From NCBI GenBank assembly GCA_019240395.1, contig JAFAYM010000130.1:1-33506 (forward strand): a stretch of DNA of 33,506 bases, written 5' to 3'. The notes beneath the pieces were generated by a model, which did not search any database, was not told the origin of the DNA, and saw only the letters and a program-made list of their open reading frames with translations. Positions 5,364-33,110 of the stretch are shown piece by piece. The stretch is from Acidisphaera sp. (GTDB lineage: Bacteria > Pseudomonadota > Alphaproteobacteria > Acetobacterales > Acetobacteraceae). The translations under genes and the position numbers were made by a program. Each line of letters opens with the position of its first letter. The stretch's first letter is position 1.

Positions 5364-7550
5364 TCAGAAGCGTTGCGCGAGCCCGGCGAGGATGGTGCGC
5401 CGCAGGCCGAATTGCGGCGCGCCGACGCCGACACCGGTGCCGTTCCTGATCTCGTACTTGCGGTCGAGCAGGTTGATCACGTCGAGCCGCAGCTGTGTGC
5501 CATGCAGAGAGCCGACGTTCAGCGTCTGCACCGCCGAGAGATTGATCGTGTAATAGCCGGGGAGCGCCATCCCGTTCGGCACCGTGGCAGTGCTGGCCCG
5601 CAGACCGCTGCCGACGAGCAGGTCGGCGGAAAGCCGGGCGGGGCTCGGCGTTCCCTGGAACAGGGTGTAGGCCGCTCCCCCCGATCCGGTCCACCGCTGA
5701 TCGTGGTCGAGATGGATGTAGTGCTGGCCGATATAGGCCAGATCCTGCGCGCTGAAGTTGAACTGGGCTGAATCGATGTCTTTGCCGATCGCCCGTGAAT
5801 AGGCCAGGTTCCCGTAGAGCGACCACGGTCCGTGATCATAGCTCGCGGTACCCTCGACCCCGTCGACCTGGCCCTTTGCATAGTTGAAGGCCGTCAGGAT
5901 GATCGGCGCGCCGAACTGGCCCTCATCGATCAGGTTCTTCGCCAGCTTGTAATAGGCATCGAGCCCGACCGTCAGCCCCGGCAGCAGTACCTGACTGAGG
6001 CCCGCATCGTAGTAATTGTCTCGCTCGGCCCTGACGACGCTGTCCTGGTTCACCGATGGCGCTGCCGTGGTGTTGCTGAACAGCCCGAGCGTCGAGCCGG
6101 ACACCAGCTCGAAAGGCGGCGGCGTGAAGTAGCGGGAATAGCCGGCGTGAACCGTGGTCGTGCCGGTCGCCTTCCAGACGACGTTGACGCGAGGGCTGAT
6201 CTGATTCTCATGGGTGAATTCGTCAACGACATCGAAGCGTGCCCCATAGTTCAACGTGAGTCGCGGCAGTAGACGCCATTCGTCCTGAACGTAGAGCCCG
6301 TATAAATCTCCGGTTTTCGCCGATCCGTCATAAATCGTCGATGGCACGTCCGAGCGCTGCGCACCCGTGTCATCGGTCAGCAAGACCTGCGATGCGGTGC
6401 TGGCGACCGTCCGCTCGCCGGTTACCTGAAAGCCGGCGCGGAGTGTATGCGTGTCGTTGACACGCCAGCTCGCGTCGGCCTGCACGCCGCTCGACCAGAC
6501 AGAGCGCGCGGCAGTCTGCGAAATGCCGTTGAACAGCAGGTCGCCAAGCGGGTCCGGACTGTAATACAGGCTGGTGTAGCGCGAAAAGGCAGAGATCTGG
6601 ACATCAAACGCGTCGAGGTGCTTCTGCAGCGACAGGATGCCGAAATCCGCGATCTCGCGCTGGTGCTCGGTCAGGGTCGAGCTGTCAAAACCGCTGATGC
6701 CGTTGACCACCAGTCCCAGCGAAGGAGTCTGTCGAGGGTTGTTCGGAATCTGGAATACGTCGTTCGAGACGCCGGCGATGAGGCTGATCCGGGTCGTCGG
6801 ATCAACGATGCCCGAGACATGCAGCAGGCCGTGATACTGGTTGCTGAGATCGTGAATGGCATTGAAACTGCTTGTAGGATTCTCGATGCCAACCCGCGTA
6901 TGCAGCCAGTCGCCCGTCACGAAATAGTCGATCGCGCCGGACCGCCCGCCATAAGAGAAGCTCGGCTGGAACAGGTCGCGCGCGCCGCCGTAGATCGAGA
7001 TTTCGCCACCGGGGTCGGTCGAGCCGGACTTCGTCGTGATGTCCACCACGCCGGCCTGCAGGAAACCATACTGCGCGGGAAGCGATCCGGTGATCAGCGA
7101 TATCGAGTGGGCGAAGCGCGTCTCCAGGGCCTGGCCGAAAACCGACAATCCCTCCGGCAGCTGCACGCCATCCAGCCGATATTGCAGCTCGTTGTGGTCG
7201 CCGCGCACGTGGACCTGGCCGAAGCTGTCCTGGGCCACGCCGGGAGCTTGCAGGAGGACCTGGTTGAGCGGGACATTGTCGCCCTGCGGGATCGCCTCTA
7301 TCGCCTGGCGGCTGAACTCGTAGCGGGTGGCCCCGAGGCTCGGCTGGATTTCGCTGCGCGCCTGATCGAGCCGCCGGCTGAGGATTTCGACATCGGGCAG
7401 CATCAGGTCGAGCCCGCCCGGCGCATCCGTCCCGTCGACCAGGCGGACCACCGGAGCCTGCTCGGTCTTGCCCCCCTCGACGGCCAGGACGGAACTGGCG
7501 ACCAGAGCGCCGAGCGTTGATCCGCAGGCCACTCCGAACCAGCATTTCAT
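5364..7550 (-). CDS. TonB-dependent outer-membrane receptor, probable zinc uptake
   Basis: A 728-residue outer-membrane receptor. An N-terminal signal peptide (MKCWFGVACGSTLGALVASS) is followed by a plug domain with QVHVRGDHNELQYRLDGVQLP and VVDITTKSG. A long beta-barrel ends in aromatic-final GLAQRF, the usual signal for barrel assembly. Barrel motifs YGLYVQDEWRL and LTLNYGARFD are typical. ATG 7550 has AAGGGA about 6 nt upstream. The substrate is not visible in the protein itself. The divergent tonB-like gene, the Zur-like operator in the shared promoter and the nearby zur suggest zinc or a zinc chelate, in the manner of ZnuD or Caulobacter ZnuK. That assignment is inference; cobalamin or a siderophore cannot be excluded. 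Confidence 0.9.
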   Translation of the reverse strand: MKCWFGVACGSTLGALVASSVLAVEGGKTEQAPVVRLVDGTDAPGGLDLMLPDVEILSRRLDQARSEIQPSLGATRYEFSRQAIEAIPQGDNVPLNQVLLQAPGVAQDSFGQVHVRGDHNELQYRLDGVQLPEGLSVFGQALETRFAHSISLITGSLPAQYGFLQAGVVDITTKSGSTDPGGEISIYGGARDLFQPSFSYGGRSGAIDYFVTGDWLHTRVGIENPTSSFNAIHDLSNQYHGLLHVSGIVDPTTRISLIAGVSNDVFQIPNNPRQTPSLGLVVNGISGFDSSTLTEHQREIADFGILSLQKHLDAFDVQISAFSRYTSLYYSPDPLGDLLFNGISQTAARSVWSSGVQADASWRVNDTHTLRAGFQVTGERTVASTASQVLLTDDTGAQRSDVPSTIYDGSAKTGDLYGLYVQDEWRLLPRLTLNYGARFDVVDEFTHENQISPRVNVVWKATGTTTVHAGYSRYFTPPPFELVSGSTLGLFSNTTAAPSVNQDSVVRAERDNYYDAGLSQVLLPGLTVGLDAYYKLAKNLIDEGQFGAPIILTAFNYAKGQVDGVEGTASYDHGPWSLYGNLAYSRAIGKDIDSAQFNFSAQDLAYIGQHYIHLDHDQRWTGSGGAAYTLFQGTPSPARLSADLLVGSGLRASTATVPNGMALPGYYTINLSAVQTLNVGSLHGTQLRLDVINLLDRKYEIRNGTGVGVGAPQFGLRRTILAGLAQRF

Positions 7551-7581
7551 GGGTTTCCCTTTCGAGCAGCGATCCGGTAGC

Positions 7582-7619
7582 TTATGTTATAGCGTTGCGT
7601 AATGTTATCCTGTAACGTT
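7582..7619. promoter_or_regulatory. Two tandem Zur-like operator palindromes
   Basis: AATGTTATCCTGTAACGTT (7601-7619) is a palindrome with 6 of 7 matching positions per half (AATGTTA-N5-TAACGTT). A weaker 21-bp palindrome lies at 7582-7602 (outer TTA/TAA), so ATGTTAT recurs 18 bp apart (7584-7590 and 7602-7608). The sequence resembles the AT-rich ATGTTATAACAT-type boxes of proteobacterial Zur. It lies between the divergent receptor and tonB genes, with zur next door. Confidence 0.6.
7586..7615 (-). promoter_or_regulatory. Predicted promoter of the TonB-dependent receptor
   Basis: On the minus strand TTACAG (7610-7615) and TATAAC (7586-7591) are separated by 18 bp and would start transcription roughly 30 nt before the receptor ATG. 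The stronger Zur-like palindrome covers the -35 element and the weaker one covers the -10, as expected for repression. It is read by eye against the sigma-70 consensus only. Confidence 0.4.
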
Positions 7620-7649
7620 CAGGGCACACTGTCCAGCCGGCATGGCGCC

Positions 7650-8450
7650 ATGGCGCGCTCGGGGCCGGTTGCCGAGCGGCTCGCCAGCAAGCTCATGCTC
7701 GCGGCGTGCCTGCACGTCGCCGTGCTGAGCCTGCTGCTGGCGATCCGACCGCGGGCCGTGCCGAGTCTGACAGCGGTCGAGGCGGTGACGATGATTTTCG
7801 CCGGCGATGCCGCCGACGCACCTCCTCCTGCTGCACTTGCTCCCGCAGCGGAGCCGGTACAGCCGGCATTGCCGCAACCGGCGGCGGCGCAGCAGCCCGA
7901 AAGCCCGGTGAGTCTGCCGGCACGACCAGCCCAGGGTGCTGAGTCCGTCGCGATGCCGGCGACGCTCGCGCCTAGGGCGTCCTCGCCGGCGATGCCGCCC
8001 AGCCGCCGGGCGGCTCCGCGACCGGCTGAATCCCGGCGACCACGCCAGCCCGCTCCACCCCGGTCGCCACCGGAGGATGGATCAGGGCGTCCGTCGGCGC
8101 CCTCGACATCGCCTGTTGCAGGCACGGCAGAGAACCGCGCGGCCGCGCCGCAAGCCGCGGCAGCCGCTTCCGTGGACGACGACACGGCATGGCGCGCGGC
8201 GCTTTCCGCCTGGCTTCAGGCGCACAAGACCTATCCGCAGGCAGCCCGCCGCAACGGCGAGGAGGGTCGCGCCGTCGTGCGTTTCACGGTGGATCGGGAC
8301 GGCCGGGTCCTGGATGTGGAGCTGGTGGGCAGCTCCGGATCGCAATCACTGGACGATGCGGCGCAAGCCATGCTGCGGGGCGCCCACCTGCCGCCGCCGG
8401 TGCGCCAACTCACGGTGACGGTGCCCGTCCGTTACCGCCTCGAGCCGTGA
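7650..8450 (+). CDS. tonB: TonB family energy-transducing protein
   Basis: A 266-residue inner-membrane-anchored TonB-like protein that couples the proton motive force to outer-membrane receptors. The layout is one N-terminal membrane helix (LMLAACLHVAVLSLLLAI), a long Pro/Ala-rich periplasmic spacer, then a C-terminal TonB domain at about 181-266 (HKTYPQAARRNGEEGRAVVR, FTVDRDGRVLDVELVGSSGS, PVRYRLEP). An ATG at 7602 in the same frame lies inside the Zur-like operator and would add a non-hydrophobic tail, so ATG 7650 is preferred, although its ribosome site is poor. It is divergent from the receptor and shares its promoter region. No exbB/exbD is in the window, so it must use those encoded elsewhere. 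Its 3' end overlaps convergent zur by 19 bp. Confidence 0.88.
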   Translation: MARSGPVAERLASKLMLAACLHVAVLSLLLAIRPRAVPSLTAVEAVTMIFAGDAADAPPPAALAPAAEPVQPALPQPAAAQQPESPVSLPARPAQGAESVAMPATLAPRASSPAMPPSRRAAPRPAESRRPRQPAPPRSPPEDGSGRPSAPSTSPVAGTAENRAAAPQAAAAASVDDDTAWRAALSAWLQAHKTYPQAARRNGEEGRAVVRFTVDRDGRVLDVELVGSSGSQSLDDAAQAMLRGAHLPPPVRQLTVTVPVRYRLEP

Positions 8451-8973: not shown

Positions 8974-10821
8974 CTACTTCTCCAGCACATAGCTGCCCGG
9001 GGCCGGCTCGATCGGCGGGTGCTGGTCGCTGCCGAGCGAGGGCGGCTCGACCTTCTTGCCGGCGTGCTCGGCCAGCCACTTCGTCCAATCCGTCCACCAG
9101 CTGCCGTCGTGGCGCATCGCCGCCCGGCGCCACTCCTCGGCGGTCTCGGCCGGTTTCTCGTTGGTCCAGAAGATGCCCTTGCCACCCGGCGGATTGATGA
9201 TGCCGGCGATATGGCCACTCGATGCCAGCACGTAACGAACGTTGCCGCCGGCAAGCTGAGTGATGCGCCACGCCGAATACCACGGCACGATGTGGTCCTT
9301 CTCGGCGCCCACGGCATAGATGTCGAGCGCGATGCGGCCGAGGTCGATCGGCTGGTCTTTCACGACGACGCGCCCGGGATGCATGAGGTTGTTCTCGACA
9401 TAGGTGTTGCGCAGGTACCAGCTGTGCGCGGCCCGGGCCATGCGCGTGCCGTCGCTGTTCCAGTACAGCAGGTCGAAGGCCGGCGGCTTGTTCCCCATGA
9501 GATAGTTGTTGACGACGTTGGCCCAGATCAGGTCGTTGGAGCGCAGCAGATTGAACATATTGGACATCTCGCGGCTGTCGAGATAGCCGCGCTGCATCAT
9601 CTGCTGCTCGATGAAGTCGATCGCCGGCTCGCCCATGAAGATCGCGGTGTCGCCGACCTTGCTGAAATCCTGCAGCGACACCATGAAAGTCGCGGAATTG
9701 AAGCGCTTGTCGCCGCTCGCCGCGAGCCAGGCCAAGGTCATCGCCAGTAGGGTGCCGCCGATGCAATAGCCCATGACGTTCAGCGTCGGGCTGCCGGTGA
9801 TCTCGCGCACGGCGTCGCTCGCCGCCAGCGGGCCGAGCTCCATGTAGTCCTCGATGGTCGTGCCGTCCATCGAGGCGTCCGGGTTCTTCCAGGACACCAT
9901 GAAGACCGTGAAACCCTGGGACACGAGGTAGGCCACCATGCTGTTCTTCGGCTGCAGGTCGAGGATGTAGTATTTGTTGATCCACGGCGGCAGGATCAGC
10001 AGCGGCACCTGGTGCACCTTCGGGGTCTGCGGCATGTACTGGATCAGCTCGATCAGCTTGTTCCGATAGACCACCTGGCCCGGGGTCAGCGCCAGGTTGC
10101 GGCCCGGCGCGAACGCCGTGGCGTCCACCATGCTCAGCCGGCCCTGCTTGATGTCGGCCAGCAGGTTGCGCGCCCCTTCGGCCAGGCTGGCGCCGCCGGT
10201 CTCCATCGCCCGCTTCAGCGCCGCCGGATTGGACACCAGCAACAGCGACGGGCTCATCGCGTCGACGAATTGCTGCAGATGGAATCGGATGCGGGTGCGC
10301 TCCGCCTCATCCATTCCGGCGATCTCACCCTGCTTGAGCAGCCAGTCCGAGGCGAGCAGGTACATCTCCTTGAGCGTGCGATAGAGCGGATTGTTCTGCC
10401 ATTCCGGCGCGGCGAAGCGCTTGTCCGCTGAGGCTGCCGGTGTCGCCGAGGCGCCGGCGTCGCCGCCCAGCCAGCGCCGGCTCGCCTCGCTCCAGATGTC
10501 GAGGGCGGAGCGCCAGAACTCGGCGTTCATCCTGGCCGCCATGGCCATCGTCGCCGCAGGATCGCTGAGCGAGTGCAGCCAAACCGTGCGCAGCGCGCGG
10601 GCGATCTCCGCCCAGTCGATGGGGATCACCTCGTGCAGCGGATTGGCGTTCAGGACCTGATCGAGCGAGTGCAGGACGGGGTCTTTCGCCAGCGTCTCCT
10701 GGAGCTGCTTGAGGCTGCCGTCGAACGGCGCGGCGAGGCCGTCGGGTGCGCCCGCCGGCCACCATGGCGACCGCAGCGTGCCGGCCTGCTCTTTTGCCTG
10801 ATCGGCTTCATGGGTCGACAT
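8974..10821 (-). CDS. phaC: Class I polyhydroxyalkanoate synthase
   Basis: A 615-residue PHA synthase that polymerises 3-hydroxyacyl-CoA into storage polyester on granule surfaces. The N-terminal PhaC region runs to about residue 260 and an alpha/beta-hydrolase catalytic domain follows. The lipase-like box is VMGYCIGGTLL, with nucleophile Cys353. The triad is completed by Asp509 (AEKDHIVPW) and His537 (SSGHIAGIINPPGG). Length and Cys box fit class I. ATG 10821 is chosen because GGAGGAGG lies 5 nt upstream; a start farther upstream would run into the neighbouring gene. No phasin, phaA or phaB is adjacent. It precedes zur by 26 nt. A second synthase begins at the right edge, so this genome has at least two paralogues. 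Confidence 0.95.
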   Translation of the reverse strand: MSTHEADQAKEQAGTLRSPWWPAGAPDGLAAPFDGSLKQLQETLAKDPVLHSLDQVLNANPLHEVIPIDWAEIARALRTVWLHSLSDPAATMAMAARMNAEFWRSALDIWSEASRRWLGGDAGASATPAASADKRFAAPEWQNNPLYRTLKEMYLLASDWLLKQGEIAGMDEAERTRIRFHLQQFVDAMSPSLLLVSNPAALKRAMETGGASLAEGARNLLADIKQGRLSMVDATAFAPGRNLALTPGQVVYRNKLIELIQYMPQTPKVHQVPLLILPPWINKYYILDLQPKNSMVAYLVSQGFTVFMVSWKNPDASMDGTTIEDYMELGPLAASDAVREITGSPTLNVMGYCIGGTLLAMTLAWLAASGDKRFNSATFMVSLQDFSKVGDTAIFMGEPAIDFIEQQMMQRGYLDSREMSNMFNLLRSNDLIWANVVNNYLMGNKPPAFDLLYWNSDGTRMARAAHSWYLRNTYVENNLMHPGRVVVKDQPIDLGRIALDIYAVGAEKDHIVPWYSAWRITQLAGGNVRYVLASSGHIAGIINPPGGKGIFWTNEKPAETAEEWRRAAMRHDGSWWTDWTKWLAEHAGKKVEPPSLGSDQHPPIEPAPGSYVLEK

Positions 10822-10826
10822 GGCTG

Positions 10827-10834
10827 CCTCCTCC
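10827..10834 (-). promoter_or_regulatory. Ribosome binding site of phaC
   Basis: GGAGGAGG on the minus strand, five bases before ATG 10821. This strong site fixes the start of phaC and rejects the longer open frame upstream. Confidence 0.7.
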
Positions 10835-10924
10835 GCTCCGGTCCCCGACTTTATGGCCGCTCGCCGCCATGCGATATGGGCTCGCAGGAACTCCAGCAAA
10901 GGTTTGCCCGGCAAGGCGACGGGA

Positions 10925-11698
10925 GTGGCGCCGCAATTCGAGCTGCTGGGACATCGGGGCGCCCGCGGGCTGTTCCCGGAAAACACGCTGGAGGGTTTCC
11001 GGGCGGCGATCGCGCTCGGCTTCGATGGCTTCGAGCTCGATGTCGGCCTGACCCGCGACGGCGTGGTCGTCGTGCATCACGATCCCGCCTTGAACCCGGA
11101 CATCACCCGCACGCCGGACGGCACGTGGCTGCGGTGCCGCAGGCTGCTGAAGGATCTGACGTTCGCCGAGCTGGGCCGTTTCGACGTCGGGCGCATCCGG
11201 CCGGGCTGCCGCTACGCCGCTTTGTTCCCGGAGCAACACCCGATGGACGGCGCGCGCATTCCGCGCCTCGCCGATGTGCTGGCGCTCGATACGGGCATTC
11301 GCCTCACCATCGAGATGAAGCTGCACCCGGACCGGACCGTCGCCCCGGAGCCCATGGCAGAGGCCGTGGTCGCGGTCGTCGAGGCGGCCGGCGCTGCCGG
11401 GCGGGTCACGCTCTCATCGTTCGAGTGGCGCAGCTTGCAGCATCTCGGCCGCATCCGCCCCGGCCTCGCCCGCGCCTGGCTCACTCCGCGCCGCACCCCA
11501 CGGCGAATGCCGGAAGCAGGCGGCGGCACCTGGTCGCCCGAGCATGGCGGCTTGACGCAGGCGCTGCTCCGGCAAGCCCACGCGCTGAATTTGCGGGTGA
11601 TTCCGTGGACGGTGAATGATCCGGCCGACATGGCCCGCCTGATCCGATGGGGCGTGGACGGGCTGATCAGCGACCGGCCGGACCTCGCGCAAGCCTAG
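10925..11698 (+). CDS. ugpQ: Glycerophosphodiester phosphodiesterase
   Basis: A 257-residue GDPD/UgpQ-type TIM-barrel enzyme that hydrolyses glycerophosphodiesters to glycerol-3-phosphate and an alcohol. The catalytic start LLGHRGARGLFPENT carries the general acid/base His and metal Glu. FELDVGLTRDGVVVVHHDPAL has the second His and the metal-binding E-x-D, and TIEMKLHP supplies a further metal Glu. The C-terminus (VIPWTVNDPADMARLIRWGVDGLISDRP) is complete. The frame stays open to an ATG at 10820 whose codon would overlap the divergent phaC start. GTG 10925 places the enzyme motif 8 residues from the N-terminus, as is usual, and leaves room for promoters, so it is preferred. ATG 10853 is the alternative. 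No signal peptide is seen, so the enzyme is probably cytoplasmic. Confidence 0.9.
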   Translation: MAPQFELLGHRGARGLFPENTLEGFRAAIALGFDGFELDVGLTRDGVVVVHHDPALNPDITRTPDGTWLRCRRLLKDLTFAELGRFDVGRIRPGCRYAALFPEQHPMDGARIPRLADVLALDTGIRLTIEMKLHPDRTVAPEPMAEAVVAVVEAAGAAGRVTLSSFEWRSLQHLGRIRPGLARAWLTPRRTPRRMPEAGGGTWSPEHGGLTQALLRQAHALNLRVIPWTVNDPADMARLIRWGVDGLISDRPDLAQA

Positions 11699-15589: not shown

Positions 15590-16412
15590 CGTGGTTTTCC
15601 GCCTGCTGCGCACGCCGCAGGGTGCGATGGGCCTCGTCATCCTCGTGCTCATCGCCGCGATCTGCGCGATCGGCCCCGACATCGCGCCGGTGGACCCGGA
15701 AAAGATCGACTTCCTCGGCCGCTTCCGCGTGCCCGGGGCGGCGCATCCGTTCGGCGCCGACCAGCTCGGCCGGGACGTGCTCAGCCGGCTGCTTGCCGGG
15801 GCGCGCACCACGGTGCCGATGGCGGTGGCGGCCACTCTGCTCGGCACGCTCTCCGGCGCCGTCATCGGCACCGTCTCGGCCTATCTCGGCGGGCGCTGGG
15901 ACGAGGCGATCATGCGCACGATCGACGCCGTCATGGCGATCCCCGGGCTGCTGATGGCGCTTCTCGTGGTGAACACGCTCGGCAAGGGCAGCCTCAACGC
16001 GACTCTCGCCATCGCCGTCGCTTTCGCCCCGGGCATGGCGCGGGTGACGCGCAGCGTTTCCCTGGCCGCGCGCCGACAGGACTATGTGAGTGCGGCGATC
16101 GCCCGCGGCGAGGGCGGCGCCTGGATCGTGTTTCGCGAGATGCTGCCGAACGTCGTGGCGCCCGTGGTCATCGAGACGACGATCCGCGTCGCCTTCGCGG
16201 TGGCGTTGTTCGCGACCCTCTCCTTCCTCGGGCTCGGCGCGCAGCCGCCGGCCTCGGATTGGGGATTGATGGTGGCGGAAGCGCGGCCCTTTCTGCACCA
16301 GGCGCCGTGGATGCTGGTGGCGCCCGGAGCGGCGATCGCGCTGACCGCCATCGGCTTCAACCTGCTCGGCGATGGGCTGCGCGACGCGCTGAACCCGCGC
16401 GACGAGCGATGA
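15582..16412 (+). CDS. Peptide ABC transporter permease (DppC type)
   Basis: A 276-residue permease partnering the DppB-type subunit. A short N-terminus with one helix (GAMGLVILVLIAAICAIGPD) is followed by the DppC hallmark HPFGADQLGRDVLSRLLAGAR. Further helices, the EAA loop (DYVSAAIARGEGGAWIVFRE) and the final AQPPASDWGLMVAEARPFL segment are intact. The end overlaps the ATPase start as ATGA. It is slightly short but within the family range, and no defects are seen. Confidence 0.93.
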   Translation: MTDVVFRLLRTPQGAMGLVILVLIAAICAIGPDIAPVDPEKIDFLGRFRVPGAAHPFGADQLGRDVLSRLLAGARTTVPMAVAATLLGTLSGAVIGTVSAYLGGRWDEAIMRTIDAVMAIPGLLMALLVVNTLGKGSLNATLAIAVAFAPGMARVTRSVSLAARRQDYVSAAIARGEGGAWIVFREMLPNVVAPVVIETTIRVAFAVALFATLSFLGLGAQPPASDWGLMVAEARPFLHQAPWMLVAPGAAIALTAIGFNLLGDGLRDALNPRDER

Positions 16413-17983
16413 TCCCGATCCTCGACATCGACGGCTACACGCTGGAATACCGGACCCGCGCCGGCGCCGTGCGTGTGCTGGACGAGGTCTCGCTGCAGAT
16501 CGCGCCGGGCCAGGTGCTCGGCCTCGTGGGTGAATCCGGCTCCGGCAAGAGCTCGCTCGCCTGGGCGGTGATGCGCCATCTCCCGGGCAACGCGCAGGAG
16601 CTGTCCGGCGCGATCCGCCTCGACGGGGAGGACCTCCGAAGCATGGGGGCCAGGCAGCTGGAAGCGGTGCGCGGCCGGCGCATCGGCATGGTGTTCCAGG
16701 ACCCTGCGACCTCGCTCAACCCCACCCTTTCGCTCGGCCGGCAGGTGGCGGAGGTGCTGGCGCGCCATCGCGGCATGAGCGCAGCCGCGGCGTGGCAGGC
16801 GGGCATCGAGGCGCTGCGCCACGTCGATCTGCGCGATCCCGCGGCGCTGATGCGGCGCTACCCGCACGAGGTCTCCGGCGGCGAGAAGCAGCGCGTGATC
16901 ATCGCGACGGCCTTCGCCTGCCGGCCCGAGCTGATCATCTTCGACGAGCCGACCACGGCGCTCGATGTGATCACCGGCGCCCGCATCCTGGAATTGTTCC
17001 GGCGGCTGCGCGAGGAGACCGGGGTGGCCGGGCTCTATATCTCCCACGATCTCGCTCTGGTGTCGCGGGTCGCCGAGCGCGTCGCCGTGATCCGCCGCGG
17101 CCAGGTCGTCGAGCAGGCCGATGCGCGCCGCATCTTTCGCGCCCCGACGCACGACTACACGCGCGCGCTGGTGCAGGCCGTGCCGCGCCCGGAGCGCCGC
17201 CTGGTGACCGACGGGCCGGGCGGACCAACCGTTCTGGCGGCGCGCGGCCTCGGCGTGGCCTATGGCCGAGCGCGGCTGTTCGGCGGCAAGCCGGTGATGG
17301 GGGCGCGCGGCGTCGACCTCGAGCTGCGCCGCGGCGAGATCCTGGGCGTGGTCGGCGAGTCCGGCTCGGGCAAGTCGACCCTGGCGCGGGCGTTTTCCGG
17401 CCTGGCGCGGTTCACCGGCGCGGTGGTGTTCGAAGGCCGTGCGCTGGCCTCGCCGCGGCAGATGGATCGCGCCTACCGCCGCGCCGTGCAGATCGTCTTT
17501 CAGCACCCCGACGCCTCGCTCAACCCGCGGCACCGCGTCGGCGCGCTGCTGGCCCGGCCGCTGCGGCTCTACGGCGGCGCGATGGCGGAGCTGCCACGGC
17601 TGCTCGAGCAGGTGCGTCTGCCACCCGACTACGCCAGGCGCTATCCGCATCAGCTCTCGGGCGGCGAGAAGCAGCGCGTCGCCATCGCCCGCGCCTTTGC
17701 CGCGAAACCGGCGCTGGTGATCTGCGACGAGATCACCGCGCCGCTGGACGTCTCCGTGCAGGCCGCCGTGGTGGAGCTGCTGCTCGAGCTGCGCCGCCGG
17801 CACGGCACCGCCTATCTCTTCATCACCCACGACCTGAGCCTGGTGCGCCAGATCGCCCACCGCATCGCCGTCATGCGCCGGGGCGAGCTGGTCGATCTGC
17901 TGTCGGTCGATGCGCTGGGCAGCGAGGCCGTGCATCCCTACACCCGCGAGCTGATCGCGGCGTCGCCAACCCCTGTCGGCTGA
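16409..17983 (+). CDS. Fused double ATP-binding protein of peptide ABC transporter (DppD-DppF)
   Basis: A 524-residue protein with two complete ABC ATPase domains in one chain, doing the work of separate DppD and DppF. Domain 1 has Walker A GESGSGKSS (41-49), signature VSGGEKQRV and Walker B LIIFDEPTTALD (about 173-184). Domain 2 has Walker A GESGSGKST (316-324), signature LSGGEKQRV and Walker B LVICDEITAPLD (about 436-447), with Ile in place of the usual Pro after the catalytic Glu. H-loops (ISHDLAL, ITHDLSL) are present in both. The oligopeptide C-terminal extension (HPYTRELIAASP) ends the chain. The start at 16409 is set by ATGA coupling with the permease; the frame is open farther upstream only inside the permease gene. 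Confidence 0.93.
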   Translation: MIPILDIDGYTLEYRTRAGAVRVLDEVSLQIAPGQVLGLVGESGSGKSSLAWAVMRHLPGNAQELSGAIRLDGEDLRSMGARQLEAVRGRRIGMVFQDPATSLNPTLSLGRQVAEVLARHRGMSAAAAWQAGIEALRHVDLRDPAALMRRYPHEVSGGEKQRVIIATAFACRPELIIFDEPTTALDVITGARILELFRRLREETGVAGLYISHDLALVSRVAERVAVIRRGQVVEQADARRIFRAPTHDYTRALVQAVPRPERRLVTDGPGGPTVLAARGLGVAYGRARLFGGKPVMGARGVDLELRRGEILGVVGESGSGKSTLARAFSGLARFTGAVVFEGRALASPRQMDRAYRRAVQIVFQHPDASLNPRHRVGALLARPLRLYGGAMAELPRLLEQVRLPPDYARRYPHQLSGGEKQRVAIARAFAAKPALVICDEITAPLDVSVQAAVVELLLELRRRHGTAYLFITHDLSLVRQIAHRIAVMRRGELVDLLSVDALGSEAVHPYTRELIAASPTPVG

Positions 17984-17994
17984 GAGGATTTTCC

Positions 17995-19215
17995 ATGACC
18001 CAAGAGGACCTGCTGGCCCGCATCGACGAGAAGGCCTGCCTCGCGTTCCTGAGCGGGATGGTGCAGCACAAGAGCTACAGCCAGACCGAGGGCGAACGGC
18101 AGCTCGCCGCCTTCATGGCCGAGCAGATGCAGGCACTCGGCCTGGAGGCCGAATTGCGGCCGCTCGGCGAGGGTGATCGCGTCAACGCCGTCGGCCGGCT
18201 GCGCGGCGTAAGCGGCGGCAAAAGCCTGCTGTTCAACGGCCACGTCGACACGAATCCCGTGTCGGAGGGATGGACGGTCGATCCCTGGGCGGGGAAGGTC
18301 GACGACCGCTTCATCTACGGCATCGGCGTCTCCAACATGAAGGCCGGCGACGCCGCCTATTTCTGCGCGGTGCGCACCCTGGTGGAGGCCGGGGTGAAGC
18401 TGCGCGGCGACGTCATTCTCACATTCGTCGTCGGTGAGCTGCAGGGCGGGGTGGGCACCTTGGCGCTGCTGCGCGACGGGCTGCGTGCCGACTACTTCGT
18501 CAACTCCGAGCCGACCGATCTGCAGGCGCTGACCATGCATGCCGCGGCCTTCGTCTTCACCATCGAGCTGGTCGGCAACACGCGCCATCTCTCCAACCGC
18601 GAGGCGGCGGTGGACGCCATCGCCGCGGCCTGCGACCTGATCCCGCGCCTGAACGCCATGACCTTCGCCGGCGCGGCCTCGCCCGAGCACGCGCGCATCA
18701 ACCGGGTGCATGTCGGCGTGGTGCATGGTGCGCTCGGCCGCGAGCTGCAGGAATGGCGGCCGCCGCAGGTGGCGGATTTCGTGCGCCTCAAGGGCTCCGG
18801 GCGTTACGCTCCCGGCCAGACCGAGCAGGGCGCGCTGGCCGATCTGCGCGCCGCGCTGGACGCGCTGGAGCAGCGCTTTCCCGGATTGCGGGCGACGCTC
18901 ACGCCCGAGCATCTGTCGGGCCGCCCCGTCATGCCGTCCTTCGAGGTGGCGAAGGACAGCCGGATCGTCCGGGCGATCAACCAAGCCTATCGCGCGGTGC
19001 GCCACCATGACCAGCCGACCGGCGCCATCACGCCGCCGGGCTATTACGGCACGGATGCCGGCCATCTCTACCGTGTCGCCGGCATGGAGGGCGTGGTGTG
19101 CGGCCCCGGCGGCCGCTACAACACCATGCCGGACGAGCGGGTGGACATCGCCGACTTTCTCGACATGGTCCGCATCTATCTGCTGACCATCATCGACATC
19201 TGCGAGCTCGCCTGA
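17995..19215 (+). CDS. M20-fold hydrolase with replaced metal ligands
   Basis: A 406-residue protein clearly of M20 (ArgE/DapE/carboxypeptidase G2) architecture. LLFNGHVDTNPVSEGW retains His83 and Asp85. The bridging Asp position reads VSNMKAG (Asn114). The Glu-Glu pair reads VVGELQGG (Glu148 kept, second Glu now Leu149). The next metal ligand seems kept as Glu172 in NSEPTD. The C-terminal His position reads YNTMPDERV (Thr377). Thus three of the usual di-metal ligands are changed. It could be a one-metal enzyme, a binding protein or a relative with different chemistry. ATG 17995 lies 11 nt after the ATPase stop with GAGAGGA upstream. It is the last gene of the peptide operon and contrasts with the canonical M20 enzyme at its head. 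Confidence 0.88.
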   Translation: MTQEDLLARIDEKACLAFLSGMVQHKSYSQTEGERQLAAFMAEQMQALGLEAELRPLGEGDRVNAVGRLRGVSGGKSLLFNGHVDTNPVSEGWTVDPWAGKVDDRFIYGIGVSNMKAGDAAYFCAVRTLVEAGVKLRGDVILTFVVGELQGGVGTLALLRDGLRADYFVNSEPTDLQALTMHAAAFVFTIELVGNTRHLSNREAAVDAIAAACDLIPRLNAMTFAGAASPEHARINRVHVGVVHGALGRELQEWRPPQVADFVRLKGSGRYAPGQTEQGALADLRAALDALEQRFPGLRATLTPEHLSGRPVMPSFEVAKDSRIVRAINQAYRAVRHHDQPTGAITPPGYYGTDAGHLYRVAGMEGVVCGPGGRYNTMPDERVDIADFLDMVRIYLLTIIDICELA

Positions 19216-19224
19216 GCGGCCTTT

Positions 19225-19283
19225 ATACCAACGGTCATAAAAGCGGAAGCGTTGGAGGAGTCAACGCTTCCGCCGGCTGGTAT
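19225..19283. terminator. Nested stem-loop between convergent genes
   Basis: Perfect 12-bp arms GCGGAAGCGTTG (19243-19254) and its complement (19262-19273) enclose a 7-nt loop. An outer pair ATACCA (19225-19230) and TGGTAT (19278-19283) nests around it. It sits between the M20 gene and the convergent DUF2786 gene, whose stop codon it touches. It probably ends transcription from both sides. The ATACCAACGGTCA flank looks like a genome-dispersed palindromic unit. Confidence 0.6.
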
Positions 19284-21046
19284 CACTCCGCGGCGGCGAG
19301 GCCGGGGCGATACTCGAAGCGCGTTCCCGCGGCGTGCCCGGCCTCATAGGCGCCGGTCATGACGGAACGCCCAGACGCCCGGTTGCGGGCGCGGAAATGC
19401 AGCCCGAGCCTGGCGAGGTCTTCCTCGATGACGGCGCTCTTGATGGGCACGAGGTCGCGGCCGGAGGAAGCCAGGGCCGCGTCGCGCTCCTTTCGCAATT
19501 CCTGCAGCTTGCCCGCGATCCCGCGCGCGAGTCCGATCTGGAAGGAGTTCGTGGCGCTCCGGCGCTCGCCCGATCCGAGTTCCAGGTAGAACTCGTTGCG
19601 GGCGAACCGGGCGGTTTCCGTGGTGAATGCGCGCTCGACCAGGTCGTAGAGATAGTGCGCTGCCGTAACGTCGGCCCGCAGGCCGAAGAAGACGTGCCGG
19701 ATCGGTGCCGAGCCGCTCTGCTGGCTCCAGGTGCGGCAATCGAAGAACGCCGCAATCACCGGCACGCATTCGTCGATCGGCCGCAGGCGGCGGCGGTCAG
19801 TGTCGATGCCGATGCCCAGGCAGGTCTGCCGGCGCAGCTCGATCTCGCTCAGCGACAATCCGTAGCGGTCGAGCAGCTCGGCGACCTTCTCGGCGGCCGC
19901 GAGCGCTTCCTCCTCTGTGCATCCCTGCTCGACGGTCTTTGCCCGGAGTCCTTGGATGCGCTGCACCAGCCGTTCGAGGTTGCCGTTGCCGTCACCGGCC
20001 GATGCGGCCGGCCGGCTCCGCCGGACCAGCTCCTCGAACAGCGATCGGGCTCCCGGCGGCATGCGGTGGCTGGCGATGGCATCGGCCAGGGCGGCGGAAA
20101 CTCCTTGCAGCGAGAGACCGGCGATGCCGTTGGCCTGGCGAAGCTGGATCGTCTCGATCTGGATGGCAGCGATCCGGGCGTAGGCGTCCGCCAAGCCGCC
20201 ATGACGCTGTTCGCGGGCGGCGGCGGAACCGCCGAGGGCTGCGACCAGGCTGTCCAGATGCGTCAGGTCGCGCACGCGCTGAATCGCCGCGGGGTCGGGC
20301 GCGACATCCGCGCCCTGCCTCGCCCAAGCCTGGACCAGCCCGTCGAGCGTACCTTCGTCCGGATCGAGGCCCGGATCGTCCGGGCCGCTCGCGTCATCGA
20401 GCGGGCGGTTCAGCCCGACGAGCTCGGGACCACCATGACGGATCAGCTGACGATAGACCGCCTCGGCGCAGCGTTGCGCGTTGGTCAGGCCCTTGCCGTC
20501 CGGGCGCATGAAGCTCCGCGCCACGGCGAGGGCCGCCTCGTCGAGCGGGGTGGCCGGCCCGACCAGCGCGTAGCTGCCCTCGCCGAGCGGTGCCGTCCGC
20601 CCGACCAGGCTCACGCCCATGCAGGGCGGGGGGATGTCCTCATCGATGACCCGAAGGGTTTCACCGGATGCCAGATCCCGGAAGCGGAGCGTGCTTTGAT
20701 CCTGCCGCTCTTCGATGCGCATCACTCGCCAGCGCGCCTGGCGCAGCGCCGCCACCGCCGCCGCTTCGTCCCGATCCGCCGGCTTGCGGTGGCGGGCCAT
20801 GCGGTCGATGGCCGTCGCACCGCTCGGCGATGGCATGAACAGGGCGAGATCGGAGGCAAGCCCGACCGCGTCGGCCAGCCGGCGTGCTTCGCGCTGCGCA
20901 TCGTCGGACAGGTCGACGTGCATCCGCCAGCGCTCGACGGTCTCGACGATACGGCTCTGCGCGACGTATTGCAGCGCGTCCACGAAAAGCCCGGTCAGCA
21001 ACACGCACAGTCTCTTCTCGTCCGCCGCCCTTTTCTTGTCCGCCAT
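19283..21046 (-). CDS. DUF2786 domain-containing protein
   Basis: A 587-residue cytoplasmic-looking protein of unknown function. A DUF2786-like helical segment is recognisable around residues 360-405 (RIQGLRAKTVEQGCTEEEAL ... AEKVAELLDRYGLS). The part after it (HVFFGLRADVTAAHYLYDLV ... FARNEFYLELGSGER ... FQIGLARGIAGKLQE) matches the domain that usually follows DUF2786 (DUF7168-like). The first 350 residues are helical, without a family I recognise, and include an acidic Asp/Pro-rich linker (DDASGPDDPGLDPDEG). No signal or membrane segment is seen. DUF2786 is frequent in phage and mobile genes, but no phage neighbours are here. ATG 21046 has GAAGAG close upstream. It is divergent from the GMC gene, with 196 bp between. 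Confidence 0.75.
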   Translation of the reverse strand: MADKKRAADEKRLCVLLTGLFVDALQYVAQSRIVETVERWRMHVDLSDDAQREARRLADAVGLASDLALFMPSPSGATAIDRMARHRKPADRDEAAAVAALRQARWRVMRIEERQDQSTLRFRDLASGETLRVIDEDIPPPCMGVSLVGRTAPLGEGSYALVGPATPLDEAALAVARSFMRPDGKGLTNAQRCAEAVYRQLIRHGGPELVGLNRPLDDASGPDDPGLDPDEGTLDGLVQAWARQGADVAPDPAAIQRVRDLTHLDSLVAALGGSAAAREQRHGGLADAYARIAAIQIETIQLRQANGIAGLSLQGVSAALADAIASHRMPPGARSLFEELVRRSRPAASAGDGNGNLERLVQRIQGLRAKTVEQGCTEEEALAAAEKVAELLDRYGLSLSEIELRRQTCLGIGIDTDRRRLRPIDECVPVIAAFFDCRTWSQQSGSAPIRHVFFGLRADVTAAHYLYDLVERAFTTETARFARNEFYLELGSGERRSATNSFQIGLARGIAGKLQELRKERDAALASSGRDLVPIKSAVIEEDLARLGLHFRARNRASGRSVMTGAYEAGHAAGTRFEYRPGLAAAE

Positions 21047-30703: not shown

Positions 30704-30755
30704 GCCGGCAGGCGCAGCTTGCGGGAATGCTCCGCCGCCCGGCATGCTCGGCGGC

Positions 30756-31574
30756 ATGTCGCGCATCCCCGAGCTCACGGTCGCGGTCGGTGGGCTCGGC
30801 GCCATCGGTCGGAAGGTGGCGCAGGCCCTGGATGACGGACTGCCCGGGCTGCGGCTCGTCGCCGTGTCCGCGCGCGACCAGGCGCGGGCGCGTGACACCG
30901 TCGCCTTGTTCCGCTCCGCCGTCGCCGTCGCACCCCTGAAGGAACTGGCCGGGCTCGCCGATGTGATCGTGGAATGCGCCCCGGCGGCGGTCTTCCTTGA
31001 GGTCGCCGAGCCGGCCCTGCGAGCCGGCAGGACGCTCATGGCGATCAGCGTCGGCGCCTTGCTGACCCACGGCCACCTCGCCGCACTGGCTCGGGAAAGC
31101 GGCGGGCGGATCATTGTGCCGACCGGGGCGCTGCTCGGTCTCGATGCGGTGCAGGCCGCGGCGGAGGGCACCGTTTCGGTGGCCCGCATGGTGACCCGCA
31201 AGCCGCCGGCCGGTCTGCAAGGCGCCCCCTATCTCGTGGAGAACGGCATCGACCTGACGGGTCTGCAGGCGCCCCGCAAGGTCTTCGAGGGAACGGCGCG
31301 GCAGGCGGTCCGCGGCTTTCCCGCCAATGTCAACGTCGTGGCGGCGCTCAGCCTGGCCGGCATCGGTCCGGATCGCACGACCATCGAGATCTGGGCCGAC
31401 CCCGCCATCGACCGCAACCAGCACGCCATCCTCATCGAGAGCGACAGCGCCCGGCTCGAGATGTCGATCAGCGGCGTCCCGAGCGAAGCCAACCCGCGCA
31501 CCGGCAGGATCACGCCGCAAAGCGTGATCGCCGCGCTGCGCAAGCTGCGCAGCCCTCTGTGTATCGGCACCTAG
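30756..31574 (+). CDS. nadX: Probable L-aspartate dehydrogenase
   Basis: A 272-residue NAD(P)-dependent enzyme that converts L-aspartate to iminoaspartate/oxaloacetate. The N-terminal Rossmann motif is TVAVGGLGAIGRKVAQAL. The AspDH hallmarks are VIVPTGALLGLDAVQAAAEG (as RIIVPTGALLG), VTRKPPAGLQGAPYL, the catalytic-domain block FPANVNVVAALSLAGIGPDR, and the end SGVPSEANPRTGRITPQSVI. ATG 30756 is chosen over 30744; neither has a clear ribosome site and the difference is four residues. The family can feed NAD synthesis, but quinolinate genes (nadA, nadC) are not adjacent. It lies 52 nt after the EamA gene, so a shared transcript is possible. Confidence 0.88.
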   Translation: MSRIPELTVAVGGLGAIGRKVAQALDDGLPGLRLVAVSARDQARARDTVALFRSAVAVAPLKELAGLADVIVECAPAAVFLEVAEPALRAGRTLMAISVGALLTHGHLAALARESGGRIIVPTGALLGLDAVQAAAEGTVSVARMVTRKPPAGLQGAPYLVENGIDLTGLQAPRKVFEGTARQAVRGFPANVNVVAALSLAGIGPDRTTIEIWADPAIDRNQHAILIESDSARLEMSISGVPSEANPRTGRITPQSVIAALRKLRSPLCIGT

Positions 31575-31607
31575 CGGCCAACCTGGCGCTTGCTACCCGG
31601 TAGGCAC

Positions 31608-33110
31608 ATGCCCTTGCCCGTGCGGCCCTCGTTGCGAAACCTCGGGACGATCTGCGGCCTGCTGCTGGTGATCGGGCTTGCACGCGACGGGCAGGCGAGC
31701 GGCCGGACGGAGCCGCTGCAACCTGTCTTCGAGGAAACGGCCTGCGATCTTCCCAGTATTTCGCCGGCTGTACGTCCGCGCCTGCGCTGCGGCAGCGTCA
31801 GCGTCCCGCGAAGTTACGCGAACCCCGGTGCAGGCCAGTTCAAGCTGGCGGTTGTCGTCATCAGGAGCGCTCAGCAGCCCGCCTTCTCGGATCCCGTCGT
31901 TTACATCAGCGGCGGCCCAGGTGGTCCCCTCACCATCTACGCCGACCATCAGGCCCGGACCCCCTACGCCCCAAGCCGCGACCTCATTCTCGTGGATCAA
32001 CGGGGAACCGGCCGATCGGAGCCAAAGCTCTGCCCTAAGCTCGATGGCGCGCTTCTCGATGCCGCCCTCGCCGTCGCCACGGACCCGAGCGCCGATGCCT
32101 TGGCCAAGCGTCGGGCCGTCTTTGCGGCGTGCCGCGCCGAGGCGACCTCGCGCGGCTTTGAAATGAGGGACTTCGGCACCAGCGTCACCGTTGCCGATTT
32201 CGAGTGGGTCCGGCGGGCGCTTGGGGTCGAACGCTGGAATGTCTACGGCGAGTCCTACGGCACGACCGTTGCCATGACCCTGCTCGCGCTGCATCCCGAC
32301 ACGGTGCGCTCTGCCGTGCTCGATTCAATCTATCCGCCGGACCCGAGGCCGATGCACTCGACCAACGTCGCCGACGCGCTCGATACGTTCTTCTTGTATT
32401 GCTCCGGCGACCAGGCCTGTGCCGCCATGTATCCCAACCTAGCGGCCACCTATCGAGAGACAGTGTCCGGGCTCGCTCGCGCGCCGCTGATCGTCAACGT
32501 GCCAACGGAGATGCATCGTCCCAATGATCGGGTGCGCCTCACGTCGACCCTGTTCGAGGCTCTGATCAGCCGTCTCATCTACTATCCCTCCGCCTATCCG
32601 AGCCTGCCACGCCTGATCGCGACAGTGCATGACCGCGACAACCAGGGGCTCGGAACGGTTCTTGCGTCGGCGCGCGCGGCCGTGGCGGCGGAGGTGGACC
32701 CCGCGACGAACCTTGCCGTCGAATGCCGCGATCGTCCGCATTATCGCCACCCGCTTCCGGCCGGTGCGAGCGTGCTCGACCGCTTGCAGCCCTACGATCG
32801 GTGCGACGATTGGTCGGAAGTCGGACCCGCGCCGCTTGTGCCGGTCGGCACCGCTGTGCCGACGCTGGTGCTGGCGGGAGAGTTCGACCCCGTCACGCGG
32901 CCATCCCTCAGCCAGCATGTGGCGGCACTGATCGGTCCCAATGCGCGCTGGGTCGAGTTTCCCCGTATCGGTCATAACGTCAGGGCGTTCAGCCCGTGCG
33001 GCGCCGAAATCGCCGCAGACTTCATCGACAACCCCGGGGAGCCACACGACACCTCGTGCGCCGGTCGCGCCGCGCCCATCCGTTTTCTTCCAAAACAGCA
33101 GACACCCTAG
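31608..33110 (+). CDS. Exported alpha/beta hydrolase, peptidase S33/TAP-like
   Basis: A 500-residue secreted hydrolase. The signal peptide core is LGTICGLLLVIGLA, with probable cleavage after GQASG. The S33-like opening (DPVVYISGGPGGPLTIYAD, DLILVDQRGTGRSEPKLC) supplies the oxyanion region. The nucleophile is Ser216 in VYGESYGTTVAMTLL. Asp427 (LAGEFDPVT) and His456 (RIGHNVRAF) complete the triad in the TAP-like C-terminal domain. Conserved cysteines (CDLP, RCGSV, CPKL, CRAE, YCSGDQAC, ECRD, RCDDW, SPCGAE, TSCAG) fit a disulfide-bonded periplasmic or extracellular enzyme. ATG 31608 is chosen; an in-frame TTG lies six codons upstream. Related enzymes are tripeptidyl or prolyl aminopeptidases. 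Link to the peptide operon is possible but not shown. Confidence 0.88.
   Translation: MPLPVRPSLRNLGTICGLLLVIGLARDGQASGRTEPLQPVFEETACDLPSISPAVRPRLRCGSVSVPRSYANPGAGQFKLAVVVIRSAQQPAFSDPVVYISGGPGGPLTIYADHQARTPYAPSRDLILVDQRGTGRSEPKLCPKLDGALLDAALAVATDPSADALAKRRAVFAACRAEATSRGFEMRDFGTSVTVADFEWVRRALGVERWNVYGESYGTTVAMTLLALHPDTVRSAVLDSIYPPDPRPMHSTNVADALDTFFLYCSGDQACAAMYPNLAATYRETVSGLARAPLIVNVPTEMHRPNDRVRLTSTLFEALISRLIYYPSAYPSLPRLIATVHDRDNQGLGTVLASARAAVAAEVDPATNLAVECRDRPHYRHPLPAGASVLDRLQPYDRCDDWSEVGPAPLVPVGTAVPTLVLAGEFDPVTRPSLSQHVAALIGPNARWVEFPRIGHNVRAFSPCGAEIAADFIDNPGEPHDTSCAGRAAPIRFLPKQQTP

Follow-up and report, generated by a model that had tools for sequence, protein, structure and literature searches.

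An M20-fold protein in an Acidisphaera transporter operon, predicted to be a one-metal hydrolase of the 5-nitroanthranilate aminohydrolase type

The locus and the operons of relatives

The window (the whole stretch of DNA analysed, 33,506 nucleotides of an Acidisphaera sp. contig) carries a compact run of forward-strand genes, the last of which encodes the M20-fold protein under study (P0001, hereafter the target; 17995-19215, +; 406 amino acids from an ATG start). The run begins with a second M20-fold protein, M20a (P0002; 11756-13084, +), followed by an SBP_bac_5 substrate-binding protein (P0003; 13081-14637, +), two ABC permeases of the Opp/Nik type (P0004, 14642-15589, +; P0005, 15582-16412, +) and a fused double ABC ATPase with two Walker A motifs in one chain (16409-17983, +), the start of which was inferred from an ATG overlapping the permease stop. 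This cluster is conserved in 76 loci. Between the ATPase stop at 17983 and the target start lie 11 bases. The target frame stays open upstream through the ATPase gene (16792-19215, +; 807 amino acids from a GTG), and this longer frame is a shadow frame of high-G+C DNA, not a fusion; opposite-strand frames over the operon, which recur in many loci, are likewise read as coding-frame shadows. The next gene after the target, on the other strand, encodes a DUF2786/DUF7168 protein (19283-21046). A glycerophosphodiester phosphodiesterase gene lies just before M20a (10820-11698, +) and was discarded as a part of the system, since it is without a homologue in five or more loci. Elsewhere in the window, a TonB-dependent receptor gene (-) and a TonB gene (+) lie divergently at 5364-8450, and an aspartate dehydrogenase-like gene (30744-31574, +) is followed by an alpha/beta hydrolase gene (31590-33110).

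The best models for the substrate-binding protein are NikA and GsiB (far below cut-off), and the binding protein and permeases together score best with Nik/Gsi/Opp models. Transporters of this family import peptides and nickel chelates, among other compounds. As the scores lie so far below the model cut-offs, the word “peptide”, which the earlier note had attached to the operon, is a guess. A peptide operon would be recognised by a peptide-specific binding protein or an intact peptidase, and both M20 proteins, as well as the M24 protein found in relatives, have changed metal sites.

A scan of genome contigs gave 201 relatives of the target, of which the best 80 (all at about 70% identity or more) were retained; these come from Acetobacterales, Rhodospirillales and Hyphomicrobiales, and also from Rhodoferax, Caballeronia and Pantoea records. 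For the upstream survey, the target gene was picked in 77 loci, 67 of them with enough upstream DNA. M20a together with the binding protein, permeases and ATPase lies upstream of the target in 56 of these 67 (57 counting L043, which has M20a once all open reading frames are compared), an M24 protein takes the place of M20a in eight, and two (L017 and L074) have neither. The operons with M20a (type I) carry a GntR-UTRA regulator, while the eight M24 loci (type II) have a GntR-FCD regulator and an M20 of the hydantoinase/carbamoylase family placed divergently before M24; in the window, the operon contains no M24 gene and no GntR gene adjoins it. The target also occurs without this operon around it (L074 and L092/L141). 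A strict division of roles within the M20 pair, as the earlier note had suggested, is not supported, given the exchange of M20a for M24 and the loci outside the operon.

Among the best 80 of 201 relatives, 32 loci carry the M24 gene (40 copies), which in most cases directly follows the target. All five of its metal-ligand columns are changed, to Glu, Arg/Cys/Val/Lys, Tyr, Tyr/His and Ser/Gly, in 40 of 40 copies (including L039:10214-11347); the ligand mapping used three reference sequences (three of ten own-genome M24 loci were usable) and agrees with a HMMER alignment to 1pv9. Ectoine hydrolase DoeA/EutD (PDB 6TWK) is the closest solved structure (94.5 bits), and its metal ligands are replaced as well. 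The DoeA NCBIfam model is also the closest, but the score of 116 bits against a cut-off of 613 indicates that the M24 protein is not DoeA itself. Creatinase and DoeA are metal-free enzymes. Since all five ligand columns are changed, the M24 protein of the operon should, by analogy, be metal-free.

Other contexts of relatives are diverse. In the 63% relative L092 (locus L141:6660-16459), two aconitase-C-like genes and genes for FdrA, AllG, a xanthine/uracil permease and PEP_mutase are found; ddpX lies downstream in one Pantoea locus, and further downstream genes in L040 and L053 did not recur in other loci. The contexts of relatives hint at amide, ureide or heterocycle catabolism, without agreement among them. 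Substrate guesses drawn from L141, the type II operons, ddpX and L040/L053 were set aside, none being common enough to name a substrate. The target itself is sporadic: at E 1e-60 or better it turned up in 7 of 289 genomes of the class, and at 1e-35 in 2 of 398 genomes of a phylum sample, its own genome being counted both times. Of 416 plasmid records with any match, 61 lie at 60-80% identity. The operon is spread among soil and plant-associated proteobacteria.

Metal-ligand map of the two M20 proteins

Membership of the target in the M20 family is borne out by both sequence and full-length fold matches. Pfam Peptidase_M20 is matched at E 6.6e-26 (91.9 bits against a cut-off of 24.6), and M20_dimer is unreported although the lid domain lies within the aligned model range. 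The best listed curated NCBIfam M20 models all remain below cut-off (NF005373, 155.5 bits against 428; TIGR01910, 146.5 against 217.6), and the annotated copies examined carry the name “M20/M25/M40 family metallo-hydrolase”. The structure prediction called for in the earlier note returned a full-length M20 fold, the AlphaFold2 model (39-row alignment) having a mean pLDDT of 92.2 and a pTM of 0.89; the model of M20a reached 89.0 and 0.87. The target model matches M20 structures over its full length (3pfo, Z 42.8; 7uoi, 41.2; 5vo3, 40.4; 5k8m, 40.2). By Foldseek and VIA-align these full-length matches comprise DapE, ArgE, 3pfo and all four entries (5k8m/5k8n/5k8o/5k8p) of 5-nitroanthranilate aminohydrolase (5NAA-A). 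As the VIA-align scores do not separate 5NAA-A from DapE, the structure search supports the fold only.

In two-metal M20 enzymes (as in the carboxypeptidase G2 and DapE structures), metal 1 is bound by a His, a bridging Asp and the Glu of the EPT motif, while metal 2 is bound by the same bridging Asp, the second Glu of a Glu-Glu pair and a C-terminal His. The first Glu of the pair activates the water. The literature search gave no ligand table for carboxypeptidase G2. A residue-by-residue alignment of the target with Enterococcus faecium DapE (7uoi) places Asn114 on the bridging Asp (TDMKS), Leu149 on the second Glu of the pair and Thr377 on the C-terminal His (LPHQVDE), so three ligand positions are changed. 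His83 (GHMD), Asp85, Glu148 (the first Glu of the pair) and Glu172 (GEPT) are unchanged. The three replacements proposed in the earlier note were thereby upheld with their numbering, as were the four retained residues and the preservation of the surrounding motifs. By codon arithmetic from the start codon, the positions (all +) are 18241-18249 for His83-Val84-Asp85 (the metal-1 His and its Asp), 18334-18336 for Asn114, 18436-18441 for Glu148-Leu149 (catalytic Glu retained, metal-2 Glu replaced), 18508-18510 for Glu172 and 19123-19125 for Thr377.

Compared with DapE, ArgE and carboxypeptidase G2, the target shares the full-length fold (Z 36-41), the HxD motif, the first Glu of the pair and the EPT Glu, but is without the bridging Asp, the second Glu and the C-terminal His that these enzymes have. 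Both ligands that serve metal 2 alone are lost and the shared Asp has become Asn, with the metal-1 and catalytic residues intact; the three changes are therefore not scattered. The metal-2 site appears to have been removed, leaving a putative metal 1 (His/Asn/Glu) and the catalytic Glu148. Two further residues, His198 and Arg270, occupy what we take to be the positions that bind the substrate carboxylate and the oxyanion in M20 dimers.

M20a, which the earlier note called the canonical enzyme heading the operon, belongs to an altered M20 family of its own. It keeps His112, Asp143, Glu177-Glu178 and His406, with Asn202 in place of the metal-1 Glu. This replacement is present in 59 of 59 M20a sequences with all other ligands kept, falls on the EPT Glu of ArgE (7rsf) and carboxypeptidase G2 (1cg2) in profile alignments, and is followed in M20a copies by an invariant NG..R.W.GCFG stretch. 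Both M20 proteins of the operon thus carry a fixed ligand change, although a different ligand is lost, M20a retaining the bridging Asp, the Glu-Glu pair and His406; in the tree, M20a forms a clade separate from the target (100/100).

Fixation of the changes and kinship with 5NAA-A

The changed and retained residues are fixed. In 81 of 81 sequences (the window and the best 80 of 201 relatives) there is no variation at His83, Asp85, Asn114, Glu148, Leu149, Gln150, Glu172, His198 or Thr377, and none of these sequences has the full ligand set of two-metal M20 enzymes (His, bridging Asp, Glu-Glu, Glu/Asp, C-terminal His). Another 12 loci, one at 63% identity and some belonging to species already represented, all show the changed and retained residues, and all 12 have Arg270. 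Since 144 of 406 positions are invariant or nearly so among the 81 sequences, the invariance of a single column says little at this depth; the weight lies on the persistence of the same changes in the far more distant 5NAA-A-like branch. The target is under purifying selection: dN/dS comes to 0.18-0.26 when it is compared with four relatives, and three close pairs give 0.03-0.05. Random decay, which the earlier note had already doubted, is ruled out by the fixation and these ratios, and the orthologues in which canonical residues might have surfaced (81 of 81, 12 of 12) have none at the three changed positions. Misplacement of the ligands by alignment, the other point on which that note had asked for a check, is ruled out by the pairing with 7uoi and the agreement of two alignments.

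5NAA-A of Bradyrhizobium sp. JS329 (PDB 5K8M/5K8N/5K8O/5K8P) works with a single class of divalent metal (Mn or Zn), bound to the enzyme, and exchanges the amino group of an aromatic compound for hydroxide. Its PDB titles read “Mn2+/5NSA-bound” and “Zn2+/Tetrahedral intermediate-bound”, and its structure paper is, we presume, Kalyoncu et al. 2016. Enzyme-coordinated Mn2+ or Zn2+ is reported for it in PMC9814641, and an SNAr-type path involving a metal hydroxide in PMC11903332. Among PDB sequences (phmmer and profile search), DapE 7uoi is the top match for the target and 5NAA-A comes next or third. The aligned 5NAA-A lines hold the motifs NSHLDT, VVNCKG, GEID and EATN. The residue-by-residue comparison covers six columns of a 172-residue fragment from the N-terminal half, in which 5NAA-A has H, D, N, E, I and E at target columns 83, 85, 114, 148, 149 and 172; its C-terminal stretch in the profile alignment is without the His. 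The M20 fold, the change of Asp to Asn and a non-Glu residue (Ile) for the second Glu are hence common to both proteins, and the target shows the 5NAA-A type of residues (Asn in the bridge, Glu-(Ile/Leu/Thr), catalytic and metal-1 residues kept). Differences include a low identity (about 20%), an insert after the Glu motif (GEIDCEP...) in the 5NAA-A branch, and His198, retained by the target and absent in aligned 5NAA-A relatives.

A plasmid search with the 5NAA-A fragment gave 56 records, the best three of which (39-42%) form a separate branch, the next among the matches listed being the target family; in a 385-genome sample of the class the fragment found ten matches. The resulting alignment leaves out L109 (a fragment), L113 (a target orthologue) and L138, and L116 gave no match. 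All 11 aligned 5NAA-A-like rows have Asn in the bridge and Ile or Thr for the second Glu, the C-terminal His is present in none of the ten sufficiently long rows, and the metal-1 Glu is Asp in two of the 11. L093 and L094 (38-39% identity to the target) have a His aligned at the bridge (YGF--VHMK) and, in place of the C-terminal His, a Ser; both retain GEL. From this bridge His and the Asp in the two 5NAA-A-like rows, it follows that the metal site varies in the wider clade; L093 and L094 (also L139 and L140) are possibly another metal-site variant.

In a 45-row tree, the target, L092-L094 and the 5NAA-A-like rows group together as a clade that excludes M20a and the other M20 proteins of the genome (99/92). 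The same clade (99/98) appears in a 40-row tree from which the eight columns of ligands and five rows that were long-branched or loose (can_L114, L115, L117, L121, L122) had been removed. With the 172-residue 5NAA-A fragment, using its columns only, the whole clade receives 91/87, which is not starred, and 5NAA-A itself falls inside the 5NAA-A-like branch (96/88). Of the 81 target rows and the 59 M20a rows, 11 and 6 respectively entered the trees, the two M20 proteins of the window being L130 and L135; near-copies or fragments (can_L129, can_L132, can_L133, can_L134, naa_L107, naa_L112, naa_L108) were left out of the trees. The target thus shares descent with the 5NAA-A-like rows apart from two-metal M20 enzymes, and because they share one clade the ligand changes look inherited from one ancestor rather than converged, with the unstarred 91/87 as a reservation. 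Nevertheless, the target is not 5-nitroanthranilate aminohydrolase proper, given its separate branch and its different gene neighbourhood: the 5NAA-A-like branch on three plasmids has a flavin monooxygenase, an isochorismatase-type hydrolase and MFS as neighbours, whereas the target has the Opp/Nik transporter.

The 5NAA-A-like M20 genes on these Paraburkholderia, Acinetobacter and Kozakia plasmids (L101:4854-6173, L102:4854-6182, L103:4899-6176) adjoin an LLM flavin monooxygenase gene, and two also adjoin genes for an isochorismatase-type hydrolase and a flavin reductase. By analogy with Rut pyrimidine catabolism, which they recall, these neighbourhoods may encode an uncharacterised ring-opening pathway.

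The one-metal reading and its alternatives

On balance, the target is probably a working one-metal C-N hydrolase of the 5NAA-A type, fed by the co-encoded importer. In the predicted order of steps, a small compound would enter through the Opp/Nik-type transporter encoded just before the target. Metal 1 would be held by His83, Asn114 and Glu172, while metal 2 could not be held in the usual way, because Leu149 and Thr377 replace its own ligands and the bridge is the neutral Asn114. Glu148 would activate the water, with His198 and Arg270 remaining at the presumed substrate carboxylate and oxyanion positions. The target would then hydrolyse a C-N bond of the imported compound, perhaps a non-peptide amide, amidine, ureide or aryl amine, working together with M20a or the putatively metal-free M24. 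The ligand losses, their fixation, the kinship and the operon can be read directly from the sequences; the single metal, the activity, the class of substrate and the order of steps are predictions. A caveat to the one-metal reading is that the sequence-nearest PDB entry is the two-metal-type DapE 7uoi and not 5NAA-A.

The earlier note had left the choice between an altered enzyme and a binding protein, and the former was right in direction. Of the five residues that contact the metals, three are replaced without exception, and at most loci (56 or 57 of 67) the operon encodes a second M20, as might be expected if the target were a non-catalytic pseudoenzyme (a binding protein or regulator holding a small molecule for M20a or the transporter). 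A pure binder, however, would not need the invariant Glu148, His83, Glu172, His198 and Arg270; M20a is absent in eight of 67 loci and in L017 and L074; and 5NAA-A, with the same changes, is active, as reported in PMC11903332 and PMC9814641. A pseudoenzyme is accordingly unlikely, and a bare binding protein in particular is not supported, because the metal-1 ligands, Glu148, His198 and Arg270 are kept and 5NAA-A, an enzyme, shares the two changes of the N-terminal half. Equally, the target might still hold two metals through nearby conserved residues (Asn114, Gln150, His357, Asp119 or others) and act as an ordinary dipeptidase or deacylase. Its fold is close to those of DapE and ArgE, family-specific conserved polar residues lie near the altered motifs, and Asp119, Cys124 and His357, conserved across the target family, could form a replacement site. 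His357, unlike the loss of the metal-2 ligands, is not kept in L093/L094 or the 5NAA-A-like sequences (which have other residues after the conserved Asp), and the losses are common to 5NAA-A, making such a replacement improbable.

The losses in the two M20 proteins are complementary (the metal-1 Glu in M20a, the metal-2 ligands in the target), each invariant in its own set, and 56 or 57 of 67 loci have both genes in one operon. M20 enzymes are dimers in which active-site residues cross over, and each chain of a target/M20a heterodimer could be imagined to supply what the other lacks. Each M20 metal site is nevertheless built from a single chain, and a centre with two metals would not be restored by pairing. 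As M24 replaces M20a in eight of 67 loci, with the target residues unchanged there, and no M20a lies beside the target in L092/L141 or L074, an obligate heterodimer is very unlikely. Tolerated drift at the ligand positions of an ordinary M20 peptidase deserves the least credence of all: two-metal M20 enzymes working with one metal are known, and DapE PDB titles include a “mono-zinc form”, but drift would scatter, while the changes here are invariant (81 of 81 and 12 of 12) with dN/dS below 0.3.

One-metal M20 chemistry is already known from 5NAA-A, and the one-metal C-N hydrolase proposed here would represent an uncharacterised family of its own, in an operon that is likewise distinct; among the papers listed by the literature search, none dealt with an M20 branch that had lost these ligands. 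A wider reading, offered tentatively, is that the operon serves the catabolism of a non-peptide amide, amidine, ureide or aryl amine with every hydrolase (target, M20a and M24) having a dismantled metal centre, and that 5NAA-A is the sole characterised member of a large, unrecognised one-metal branch of M20 that includes the target. If so, SNAr-like or other unusual C-N hydrolysis would occur far more widely than a single nitroaromatic enzyme implies. Peptidase or ArgE/DapE deacylase is the blanket annotation given to M20 proteins, and a coherent, fixed loss of the second metal site would mark a branch whose chemistry should differ. Asn in the bridge and Glu-Leu/Ile/Thr in place of Glu-Glu provide a residue rule for recognising it.

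Further M20 genes of the same genome show departures of other kinds. L126, L128 and L131 (contigs C118 and C222) keep the Asp and the Glu-Glu pair with an apparent Ala/Gly for the C-terminal His, and C91:181-798 (L002, L133), an M20 gene cut by the contig end, has Glu-Val for Glu-Glu with the bridging Asp kept.
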